Both the position numbers and the translations under genes were made by a program. From a virus: a stretch of DNA of 42,717 bases. The notes beneath the pieces were generated by a model. It ran no database searches. It was not told where the DNA came from and was given only the letters and a program-made list of their open reading frames with translations. Position 1 is the stretch's first letter, and each line of letters starts with the position of its first letter. Positions 2,075 through 9,314 of the stretch are shown piece after piece. The stretch is taken from positions 1-42,717 of the IMG/VR virus record IMGVR_UViG_3300009788_000167. One strand, written 5' to 3'.

Positions 2075-3330
2075 TCCCCGCGCTTCGCCGATTTCGACCC
2101 TCCAAGGGCAACCGGTGGAGCCAGTGCGCGGGCAGCGTCGCCGCAGAGGCGGCGCTGCCCGACGAGCCATCCTCCCACTATGCAGCGGAGGGGAGCGCCG
2201 CTCATGCGCTGGGAGCCGAGTGCCTACGGGAGGACAGAGACGCCCTCAATTTCCTGGGCGAGGTTTTCGACGCGGAAGGGATTGTCCACCCGGGAGACTG
2301 CTGCGGTGCCCCTGACCAGTTCCAAGTAACCCAGGAAATGGCCGACGCGGTACAGGTCTACCTGGATGACGTGCGCCAGTTCCTCGCCACTGTCAGAGGT
2401 CAAGACTACGATCTTCGAATCGAAGAGACAATCCTCTCCCCGATTCATCCGGAAGCCAGCGGAACCTCTGACGCTGCCGCCCTTCAGAAGTGGGGCTTTG
2501 GCGTCATCTGGGATTACAAGCATGGCGTGGGCCAAGTTGTCGAGATCATCGCCAATATTCAACAGGTCTGCTACGCCATCGCCTGGGCTGAGGAGTACGA
2601 GCTCACCAAGGTTTCCATGCGCATCGTCCAGCCCCGCGCCCGCCATAGGGACGGCAAGATCCGAGAGTGGACGCTCACAGCGAAACAGCTCCGGACATGG
2701 AAGGCGAAGCTGGAGAAGAAGATAGAAGCTGCACTCTCACCAAACGCTCCACTGAAGGGCGGGTCCTGGTGCAAGTGGTGCAAGGCGATTGACACGTGCC
2801 CCGCCTTCCGCAAGTGGACAGCGGAGCGAGCCCAGATAGACTTCTCCAGCGAGATCATCGAGGACATCCTTCCTCCAGTTCCCATGGATGTGATGGACCT
2901 CTACCGCATTCTGATCGTAGCGCCGGCTCTCGAGGATTTCATCGCCAGGGCTCGAGGTCGAGCGCTCGGCGCTATGATGAAAGGCCAGCGCATCCCGGAG
3001 TGGAAACTTGTCCGGGGCACGACCAAGCGGAAATGGATCCTTGGAGAAGTTCGAAACGAGGACGAGCTTGCTGAGATGCTCGGGAGATTCCCTGGTATCG
3101 TGACCCCGTGGAATTCCAAAGTCATCTCACCGAAGCAAATTGAGGACGGAATTAAGTCGGTCCTCCCAGTTGGAGAGGTGAGGGATACAGCTCTCTCCGC
3201 TCTCGCTGCTCTGTGGCAAAAGCCGGAGGGCGCCATTGTGCTCGCCCGGAACACGGATCCCCGGGCGGCCCTGGAGGTCACATCGGCGGAAGATGACTTT
3301 CTCGACGAGACCCTGGAGGACCTCTTATGA
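2071..3330 (+). CDS. DUF2800 family nuclease (PD-(D/E)XK, Cas4-like)
   Basis: A 419-aa protein starting in an ATGA overlap with the previous gene. The opening SKGNRWSQCAGSVAAE and SSHYAAEGSAAH are typical of DUF2800. The nuclease core is visible as IWDYKHGVG (D and K of the D-x(n)-E-x-K active site) near residue 150, followed by Q-x3-Y-x3-W, and a C-terminal cysteine set GGSWCKWCKAIDTCP near residues 231-245 that in Cas4 and AddB relatives holds an iron-sulfur cluster. The family is a phage exonuclease-like recombination enzyme acting with an ssDNA-binding protein, here DUF2815. Its last codons (GAGGACCTCTT) also form the ribosome-binding site for the next ATG. Family call is strong; nuclease activity is inferred. 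Confidence 0.88.
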   Translation: MIPALRRFRPSKGNRWSQCAGSVAAEAALPDEPSSHYAAEGSAAHALGAECLREDRDALNFLGEVFDAEGIVHPGDCCGAPDQFQVTQEMADAVQVYLDDVRQFLATVRGQDYDLRIEETILSPIHPEASGTSDAAALQKWGFGVIWDYKHGVGQVVEIIANIQQVCYAIAWAEEYELTKVSMRIVQPRARHRDGKIREWTLTAKQLRTWKAKLEKKIEAALSPNAPLKGGSWCKWCKAIDTCPAFRKWTAERAQIDFSSEIIEDILPPVPMDVMDLYRILIVAPALEDFIARARGRALGAMMKGQRIPEWKLVRGTTKRKWILGEVRNEDELAEMLGRFPGIVTPWNSKVISPKQIEDGIKSVLPVGEVRDTALSALAALWQKPEGAIVLARNTDPRAALEVTSAEDDFLDETLEDLL

Positions 3331-7290: not shown

Positions 7291-8232
7291 ATGGACTGGT
7301 TCCGGGTACTCGAAGGTCACGTCCTCACGAAGCTTGAGCTTGTGCCGAGCGGCTCCGTCCGTTGCTGCGTGACTTCTCCACCCTACTTCCGACAGCGGCG
7401 CTACGGCGTGCCCGATGAGATCGGTTGGGAAGACTCCGTGGATGAGTACTGCGCCCGCTTGGTGGAGATTTTCGCCGAGGTGCATCGCGTTCTCTCAGAT
7501 GACGGTACGCTGTGGGTGAACATTGGCGACAAATTCAATGGAAGCGGAGGGGCCGGCGGCGACTACGTTGGTGGGGGCATCCGAGACGGGCAACGGCGGT
7601 ACAAGGCATGCCGACTACCCGAAGCAAAGCCGAAAGACCTGCTCATGGTTCCGGCGAAGCTGGCTATAGCGCTGCGTGACTGGGGCTGGTATCTCCGCTC
7701 TGACAATATCTGGAACAAGACGAACACGCAGCCCACTGGAGTGGCAGACCGCCCCCTCATCTTCCACGAGTACGTTTTCCAGTTCTCCAAGTCTCGCCGC
7801 TACTTCTATGATCAGGATGCCGTGCGAGAGATCACAGGGCGCGAGGCCAGTTGGGAAGAGTGGAGAGCGTACAAGGGGAGGAACAAAGGCGCTGACGCGG
7901 ACCGCTTCGGCAAGGGCTACCGAAAGCGCTCCCCAGCGATCACCCATCCCCTCGGCCGAGGGTTGCGCTCGGTGTGGAAGATCTCTGGGAACACGAGCAA
8001 CGGGAAGAAGCGGAAGCACTTCTCCAGTTTCCCCACCGGCCTACCCCGCATCCCAATCTTAGCAGGCAGCGCACCGGGAGACGTGGTGCTCGACTGTTTC
8101 TCGGGCTCCGGCTCCACTGGTGTAGAAGCGCTACGGCTGGACCGCCGATATCTGGGCATCGAGCCAGACGCCAAGCATGCCGCCAGTTCTCGAGAGCGTC
8201 TCTCGGATGGATGGCTCGAGGATCTCTTATGA
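7291..8232 (+). CDS. DNA methyltransferase, N4-cytosine/N6-adenine type
   Basis: A 313-aa beta-class amino-methyltransferase. Catalytic motif IV is TSPPY (residues 28-32), the form most common in N4-cytosine enzymes. SAM-binding motif I, DCFSGSGSTG (about 268-277), comes late in the chain, as in this class. Between them lie LWVNIGDKF, a variable target-recognition part and HPLGRGLRSVWKI. ATG 7291 was chosen because it fits the family N-terminus (DWFRVLEGH) and follows AGGAG. The last codons GAGGATCTCTT form the ribosome-binding site for the next gene, the C5 methylase. No restriction endonuclease is encoded next to it, so self-protection against host restriction or expression control is likely. 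Confidence 0.9.
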   Translation: MDWFRVLEGHVLTKLELVPSGSVRCCVTSPPYFRQRRYGVPDEIGWEDSVDEYCARLVEIFAEVHRVLSDDGTLWVNIGDKFNGSGGAGGDYVGGGIRDGQRRYKACRLPEAKPKDLLMVPAKLAIALRDWGWYLRSDNIWNKTNTQPTGVADRPLIFHEYVFQFSKSRRYFYDQDAVREITGREASWEEWRAYKGRNKGADADRFGKGYRKRSPAITHPLGRGLRSVWKISGNTSNGKKRKHFSSFPTGLPRIPILAGSAPGDVVLDCFSGSGSTGVEALRLDRRYLGIEPDAKHAASSRERLSDGWLEDLL

Positions 8233-9314
8233 GTGATGGGCTCTACAATGACGTGGAACCTTTCGTAATCCCATGGTTATGGAATCTCATGGACGTTGGC
8301 TTGATACGGGAGGGCCTGGTAGACGGACGTCCTATCCAAGAACTCCGGAGCGAGGATCTCAATGGCGTCACTCAGTTCCACGCTTTCGCCGGTATCGGGG
8401 CATGGTCTTACGCCCTCCGACTCGCTGGCTGGCCCGATGAGGTTCCTGTGTGGACCGGTTCATGTCCGTGTCAGCCTTTCTCCTGTGCAGGAAAGAAACG
8501 AGGATTCAAAGATGAGCTCCACCTCTGGCCAGAATGGTTCCGGCTTATCCGAGAGTGTCGCCCTCCAGTCGTGTTTGGAGAACAGGTTGCAAGCCCTGAC
8601 GGCCGGGCGTGGATCGACCTTGTTTCGACTGAAATGGAAGCACTGGGTTACTCCTTTGGGGCGGCAGATTTGTGCGCTGCGGGCATCGGTGCTCCGCACA
8701 TCCGACAGCGCCTTTGGTTCGTGGCCATTACTAGTGGTGAACGACTCGGAAGGATACGCCTACAGTTACAGCAACGGGTGGAAAGATCAGAAATGCCTGA
8801 AACTCCTAGAAGTTGCGAGACTGGCGCATTGGCCGACAGCGAAAGCATCCGACTCGGGGCGGGGTGGACAAGCGAAACGTGCCATGGGGACAGCACGCCG
8901 CGCTCATCTGAACGATACCGCCATGCTAGCAAGCTGGGGTACTCCTGCAGCCCGAGATTGGAGAGACGGCCGGGCCAGTCCAGAGACCATGAAGAGGAAT
9001 TCTCGCCCTCTGAACGAACAGACAGTGCAACTAGCGGGTTCTGGGAAGACTGCGGATGGATCCCCTGCCAAGACGGAAAAGCGAGGCCAATTGCACCCGG
9101 AACATTCCCTCTGGCTCATGGGGTTGCCGGTCGCGTGGCTGTGGTGCGCCCCAGGCAACAAACCATACCCACGGTTCCAGGAGAAGTCCACTGGTATAGT
9201 CGACGAGGAGCCTTGAAAGCCATTGGTAATGCTATCGTCGCCGAAGTAGCGGAGATATTCATCCGGGCTGTCATCGACCACCTACTGGAACCCTGCGTGG
9301 GAGATCTCTTGTGA
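8229..9314 (+). CDS. C5-cytosine DNA methyltransferase (Dcm family)
   Basis: A 361-aa protein starting in an ATGA overlap with the upstream methylase. After about 48 extra residues comes motif I FAGIGAWS (53-60), then the catalytic loop GSCPCQPFS (Cys81), GEQVAS and HIRQRLWFVA. The middle, about residues 185-285, is unusually rich in Ser, Arg and Glu. The end has the phage-type GWIPCQDGKARPIAPGTFPLAHG and the cofactor-side motif GALKAIGNAIV. It should methylate C5 of cytosine at an unknown site. A second long ORF (8362-9216) overlaps it in the +1 frame, and the low-complexity middle is where that ORF looks most protein-like. Confidence 0.92.
   Translation: MSDGLYNDVEPFVIPWLWNLMDVGLIREGLVDGRPIQELRSEDLNGVTQFHAFAGIGAWSYALRLAGWPDEVPVWTGSCPCQPFSCAGKKRGFKDELHLWPEWFRLIRECRPPVVFGEQVASPDGRAWIDLVSTEMEALGYSFGAADLCAAGIGAPHIRQRLWFVAITSGERLGRIRLQLQQRVERSEMPETPRSCETGALADSESIRLGAGWTSETCHGDSTPRSSERYRHASKLGYSCSPRLERRPGQSRDHEEEFSPSERTDSATSGFWEDCGWIPCQDGKARPIAPGTFPLAHGVAGRVAVVRPRQQTIPTVPGEVHWYSRRGALKAIGNAIVAEVAEIFIRAVIDHLLEPCVGDLL
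8362..9216 (+). CDS. Overlapping ORF inside the C5 methylase (284 aa, +1 frame)
   Basis: A 284-codon ORF lying wholly inside the cytosine methylase gene in another frame. ATG 8362 is preceded by GAGGA-TCTCA, the same spacing and sequence used by accepted starts at 3327 and 8229. Its translation holds segments I recognise as recurring in phage proteins linked to methylases: STLFRLKWKHWVTPLGRQI, ALRASVLRTSDSAF, LASWGTPAARDWRDG, LNEQTVQLAG, and a last block HPEHSLWLMGLPVAWLWCAP. These blocks are more protein-like than the matching part of the methylase frame. Function unknown. It could be a genuine overprinted gene or a fragment of former methylase sequence; I lean to genuine. Confidence 0.55.
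   Translation: MASLSSTLSPVSGHGLTPSDSLAGPMRFLCGPVHVRVSLSPVQERNEDSKMSSTSGQNGSGLSESVALQSCLENRLQALTAGRGSTLFRLKWKHWVTPLGRQICALRASVLRTSDSAFGSWPLLVVNDSEGYAYSYSNGWKDQKCLKLLEVARLAHWPTAKASDSGRGGQAKRAMGTARRAHLNDTAMLASWGTPAARDWRDGRASPETMKRNSRPLNEQTVQLAGSGKTADGSPAKTEKRGQLHPEHSLWLMGLPVAWLWCAPGNKPYPRFQEKSTGIVDEEP

Follow-up and report, generated by a model that had tools for sequence, protein, structure and literature searches.

The methylase gene and its nested reading frame

The window, meaning the whole stretch of DNA that was analysed, was a virus record from IMG/VR, 42,717 bases long. One of its genes encodes a methylase, whose product we named alpha (frame 0), and an ORF nested in the same gene encodes in frame +1 a product that we named beta. 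An N4/N6-type methylase ORF (PF01555) was located upstream of alpha and a helicase-like ORF downstream. The features were as follows.

8229..9314, + strand: alpha, C5 cytosine methyltransferase (361 aa, pI 5.7; PF00145, phrog_363)
8362..9216, + strand: beta, overprinted ORF, proposed target-recognition plus motif IX subunit (284 aa, pI 9.7; phrog_1008, phrog_31772, tblastn, purifying selection)
8352..8356, + strand: GAGGA, candidate Shine-Dalgarno for beta, read from the sequence, 5 nt ahead of ATG 8362
8512..8514, + strand: second candidate start of beta, Met51, with GAGGA at 8500-8504
8545..8691, + strand: conserved core of beta, predicted as a helix (62-82) plus two strands (88-110), overlapping alpha motifs VI-VIII; block pLDDT 75-93
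8830..8946, + strand: W[PG]T[PA] repeats of beta (8830-8841 and 8935-8946), between alpha motifs VIII and X
9091..9138, + strand: LHPEHSLWLMGLPVAW of beta, putative counterpart of motif IX, aligned to single-frame MTases in which it stands just before motif X

By its sequence, alpha is a C5 cytosine DNA methyltransferase. It matched PF00145 (6.2e-17, confined to residues 72-206) and phrog_363 (1e-66, residues 5-348), and carried motifs I (FAGIG, 8385), IV (PCQPFS with its PCQ, 8466), VI (GEQV, 8577), VIII (IRQRL, 8700) and X (IGNAI, 9222). The sequence-only reading of this DNA had placed a 284-codon +1 ORF wholly inside the methylase, and this was confirmed at 8362-9216 (+) with an ATG start. 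The +1 open stretch in the window methylase was 297 codons long, a length reached by none of 100 synonymous-codon shuffles (mean 128, largest 260). Among relatives, +1 openness beat all 100 of a gene's own shuffles in 66/136 distinct genes and was matched by some shuffle in the other 70. Since GC was high and only 66/136 relatives exceeded all shuffles, openness by itself was weak evidence, and the case for beta as a gene rests on the conservation tests instead. Between GRV and GALKAIGN (window 9126-9225), alpha had an insertion of about two dozen residues absent from relatives, and the C-terminal tail of beta was read from the same stretch.

Homologues of beta and spread of the nested pair

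A search of the 284-aa product against phage proteins, which had been suggested as a check, returned homologues. By hmmscan, beta matched phrog_1008 (3.6e-21, residues 32-263 to 42-282 of 329) and phrog_31772 (6e-14) but nothing in Pfam or NCBIfam; phrog_1008 was matched by 120/120 aligned betas, among which Pfam and NCBIfam gave scattered chance matches only. Against PDB sequences beta had 0 matches up to E 10. With tblastn at E 1e-5, beta found 196 of 50,697 phage records (in 140 of these the match spanned 80% or more of the query) and 16 of 72,556 plasmids. A single-sequence back-translated beta query found no relative in viral_contigs; an alignment query did.

We then determined where these homologues lay. 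A beta homologue was nested in frame +1 of alpha in 378/378 alpha-type loci, which repeat contigs and amount to 327 distinct by alpha DNA. The first set (164/164 loci, both profiles matching) was composed of the window, 4 phage records, 80 loci retrieved by a beta query and 79 that came first from a query with alpha alone. The second (L165-L247, 83/83) consisted of 80 bacterial contigs fetched with beta and 3 phage records chosen as annotating both genes, and the third (131/131) was fetched with the alphas of K1ind3, Sitara and N15. Beta profiles fetched no locus with a free-standing beta, that is, one without alpha over it. Absence of +1 homologues from related phages, or stops in that frame while the methylase was kept, had been named as outcomes that would speak against overprinting. 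Homologues were present at every one of the 378 loci, and a stop was seen in only 1 of 131 loci (L271, with a TAA inside the +1 frame and alpha kept). In a remoter set of 77 loci fetched with ShiLan gp70, the window-type beta profile matched 67, in frame +1 only (51), frames 0 and +1 (8), frame 0 only (5) or other (3). In 12 bacterial genomes, where 30 loci of 40 rows were examined, none of 17 genes whose PF00145 match reached motif X had a beta match, whereas all 11 genes whose match ended near VIII had one; the genomes were picked as beta holders, so that only the 0/17 is informative.

Annotation of beta lagged behind that of alpha. In the first four records opened (Bordetella PHB09, SEN5, BcepC6B and N15) alpha was annotated and beta was not. 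Both genes were annotated in K1ind3 ("putative Mte8-like protein"), Xanthomonas PhiXhv-18 (two "DNA methyltransferase" entries) and Paenibacillus Sitara ("g59 internal gene"). The nested pair is of a known kind, under-annotated and very widespread. The recurring phage ORFs that the sequence-only reading had put next to cytosine methylases are real, but they are nested inside the methylases and not adjacent to them.

Start sites in frame +1

One ribosome-binding module had been proposed for the starts at 3327, 8229 and 8362. GAGGATCTC was exact at 8218-8226, ahead of ATG 8229, and at 8352-8360, ahead of ATG 8362, whereas start 3327 was preceded by GAGGACCTC at 3316-3324, off by one mismatch. 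With up to one mismatch, GAGGATCTC occurred 49 times in the window versus 21.7 expected. At 3316-3330, 8218-8231 and 9301-9313 the upstream ORFs ended in ..DLL with the next start immediately after, and the stop, an SD-like GAGGA or GGAGA and the start were packed together.

The start of beta may be ATG 8362 or ATG 8512, both of which are candidates behind GAGGA. Strong SD sequences at the internal +124/+127 starts were dropped as evidence, because Gly-rich alpha codons yield GGAGG anyway, and the start argument therefore rests on the choice between NAT and NAC in alpha. For the +1 ATG 41 nt before motif I, NAT was picked over NAC in 151/187 genes with 72.6 expected (p 1e-31, a guide only, as genes of one family are not independent). 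At the +127 position NAT was picked in 77/103 genes (42.3 expected). No ATG preference was found at +130 (33/181 versus 75.2 expected), or at +28 and +55. Relatives thus favour codons that create a +1 start over their synonymous counterparts. The window had neither preferred ATG at its exact position, and ATG 8512 sat one codon off +127. In N15 the +1 frame opened only after motif I, leaving no open frame over the first part of beta, so a short beta suffices in that phage.

Selection in the two frames

Sites were counted by a simple Nei-Gojobori-like method devised here, with same-gene controls guarding against bias. In the overlap, dNN/dNS of beta in frame +1 was 0.62 (95% interval 0.50-0.75) over 41 disjoint pairs, and dSN/dSS was 0.39 (0.24-0.60). 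Outside the overlap in the same genes, dNN/dNS of frame +1 was 0.86 (0.75-1.03). Frame +2 in the overlap gave 1.39, with dSN/dSS 0.71 from few sites. For the 18 pairs fetched by methylase only, beta dNN/dNS was 0.53 (0.40-0.66), and SN/SS was 0.66 with an interval (0.33-1.31) too wide to inform. Along the gene, the beta ratio was 1.08 before the overlap, then 0.81, 0.71, 0.43, 0.58 and 0.31, and 1.05 after it. The first ~45 codons of beta were weakly constrained (0.81, 0.66-1.01), and the value of 0.43 belonged to the alpha region from EQVAS to QRLWFV. Between motifs VIII and X, alpha was nearly neutral (NN/SN 0.89, 0.79-0.98) whereas beta was constrained (NN/NS 0.58). Divergence at alpha-synonymous, beta-nonsynonymous sites was 0.548 before the overlap versus 0.096 over the motif IX segment of beta. 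Site conservation in both frames had been suggested as a further check, and in the overlap purifying selection acts on both frames, with no constraint on +1 outside it.

These data bear on the possibility that the +1 frame is untranslated, its openness and conservation being a shadow of alpha codon choice or of a constraint on DNA or RNA. Long open frames are usual in high-GC genes, and some shuffle reached the observed length in 70/136 relatives. However, constraint fell on +1 and not on +2, the +1 product was conserved where alpha was nearly neutral, +1 start codons were preferred, and an RNA constraint would not track codon positions. We regard an untranslated frame as very improbable. The proposal of a genuine overprinted gene thus held up, through +1 homologues in hundreds of phages and prophages, purifying selection in both frames and preferred +1 starts; the ORF itself had been called correctly, though no function had been offered for it.

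Division of motifs between alpha and beta

In C5-MTases a large domain holds most of the motifs, and the variable region and motif IX lie in a small domain that makes the specific DNA contacts (PMC3404938). No motif IX-like string was found in the window alpha. Beta contained an element of the pattern LxPxxxxxLMGxPxxW, which we identify through intermediates as the putative C5-MTase motif IX. Among 315 whole distinct loci, a motif IX regex matched beta only in 281, alpha only in 3, neither in 31 and both in 0. Direct hhalign of beta versus 17 canonical MTases did not find motif IX (probability 0.4%). One intermediate was L373, which PF00145 covered up to profile position 294 of 324; by phmmer its copy of the element fell on M.HhaI 266-292, which is motif IX of that enzyme, in a weak second stretch (7 bits) within a strong overall match. 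The structure model of beta was poor (pLDDT 59.9, pTM 0.31), the conserved core being the sole confidently predicted part, and no TRD fold was evident in it for that reason. The basic pI of beta (9.7 versus 5.7 for alpha) is in keeping with beta touching DNA.

Single-frame, split and fused relatives

ShiLan gp70, Gordonia Rabbitrun gp78 and L373 had beta-like segments in the methylase's own frame. We aligned 15 single-frame actinophage enzymes into a profile and compared it by hhalign with the other proteins. The profile matched canonical I-VIII at 1.1e-37, window-type alpha over columns 84-208 (IV-VIII, 1.5e-20), beta over columns 282-416 (7.1e-8, probability 94.6%), and alpha motif X weakly over columns 417-443 (E 0.025). 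The beta and motif X matches abut, and the order along the single chain was alpha I-VIII, then the beta-homologous segment, then alpha motif X. Judged from these alignments, alpha and beta complement each other as parts of a single enzyme, and by homology alpha would be the large domain and beta the small domain of a C5-MTase. An AF2 model of the single-frame enzyme L391 (pLDDT 69.3, pTM 0.71) superposed end to end, over its residues 1-372, on M.HhaI 12-326 (Z 20.9, rmsd 4.1, 244 aligned). Because its low-confidence stretch (175-242) fell within the variable region, no TRD fold was evident in this model either.

The alignments also address whether beta is real but separate from the enzyme, as an anti-restriction protein or a regulator, say, with alpha alone as the methylase. 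Alpha retains motif X and the catalytic Cys, Glu and Arg motifs, beta is without a Pfam match, and the alpha-beta complex is a prediction. However, the C-terminal half of beta aligned to the in-chain VIII-X segment of single-frame MTases, alpha was without motif IX, and a free-acting protein should sometimes stand alone, whereas no lone beta was present in the beta-fetched loci. We consider a separate function unlikely.

In L241, L307 and L373, indels fused alpha I-VIII in frame with the WPTP and motif IX part of beta. After the indel, motif X was in another frame in L241 and L307 and was not found in that ORF in L373. These frame-swapping indels may be natural or assembly errors. Such fusions, along with the existence of single-frame actinophage enzymes, would fit a ribosomal frameshift that produces one chain of alpha I-VIII and the C-terminal half of beta. 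But the most conserved core of beta overlaps alpha VI-VIII and so cannot be in the fusion, the frame-0 position of motif X in the window would call for two shifts, and +1 ATGs were preferred. A frameshifted fusion is accordingly held to be highly improbable.

L380 (1502-1960) and L384 (1370-1948) were single-frame for IX and X, yet had a +1 ORF with the hairpin core matching phrog_1008; a shorter beta may persist in these actinophages.

A probable two-polypeptide methyltransferase

Our preferred reading, which we think likely, is that one C5-MTase is made as two polypeptides from fully overlapping frames that assemble into an active enzyme. Alpha would hold the SAM-binding and catalytic motifs I, IV, VI and VIII and the C-terminal X. 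Beta, made from its own start codon in frame +1, would hold the helix-hairpin core, the WPTP-type repeats and motif IX, and would supply the piece that in single-chain enzymes lies between VIII and X and contacts DNA; it is very probably the half for DNA recognition that alpha lacks. From the sequence comparisons we infer that beta is translated, assembles with alpha and is needed for activity, and beta would presumably set the target sequence. The assembled enzyme would methylate phage, and perhaps host, DNA, for which escape from restriction would be the simplest role.

On balance we lean towards a broader interpretation, in which the C5-MTases of phages and prophages include a very large class of obligate two-polypeptide, overlapping-frame enzymes. 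The class would span phages of Proteobacteria, Firmicutes, Bacteroidota and Actinobacteria. The recognition half would evolve in +1, freeing the recognition region of alpha itself from selection, and pieces would have moved between frames across lineages, giving nested, split and single-frame versions. Most records with the pair annotate alpha only, and a conserved protein is thus absent from phage annotation; alpha cloned by itself may seem inactive. The pair would offer for study a long same-strand overprint with a clear function in both frames, for which the single-frame relatives are an internal reference on the way an enzyme is shared out between frames.

Comparison with known systems

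We found no paper describing a nested ORF in phage C5-MTases in a search that took in few subscription journals and is no proof of novelty. The small-subunit gene of M.EcoHK31I reportedly lies within that of the large subunit, in a different frame (Lee, Kam and Shaw in 1995), as the beta ORF lies inside alpha. M.EcoHK31I (YGGCCR) is described with motifs I-VIII and X in its large subunit and IX in the small one, and halves made by splitting other C5-MTases complement one another (PMC3404938). Likewise, the window alpha had I-VIII and X without IX (3/315 loci with an alpha match to the IX regex), and the small chain, beta, had a putative motif IX, as judged through single-frame relatives and the weak L373/M.HhaI alignment. 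The likeness is one of motif layout. Unlike the M.EcoHK31I account, which places the predicted TRD in the large subunit (PMC3404938), the VIII-X region here was close to neutral in alpha and under constraint in beta. Moreover, the present gene is a phage gene, with no restriction enzyme seen.

Beta and alpha matched phrog_1008 and phrog_363, respectively, both phage "DNA methyltransferase" families; the PHROG label is silent on their overlap in one gene and on the division of the enzyme. The ShiLan gp65 methylase gene contains an out-of-frame HNH protein, a mobile insertion with an endonuclease (PMC11855218). Like beta, it is encoded out of frame within the methylase gene of a phage, but beta is no insertion, matched no HNH, and lies in a different methylase (gp65, not gp70, being the ShiLan gene concerned), and this parallel was set aside.

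In M.AquI, also a C5-MTase of two chains, the division falls between VIII and IX, and the small subunit carries both IX and X (PMC3404938). The window pair would similarly be two chains cut after VIII, but motif X stays in alpha (9222), and the pair falls outside the M.AquI type of split. Streptomyces phage Euratis is closer to M.AquI: gp33 stopped after VIII, and a +1 protein carried the rest, IX and X. In this phage (L379, 1462-2521) gp33 and gp34, both annotated "DNA methylase", seem to be a single C5-MTase divided after VIII, and the +1 frame was already open well before the annotated start of gp34.
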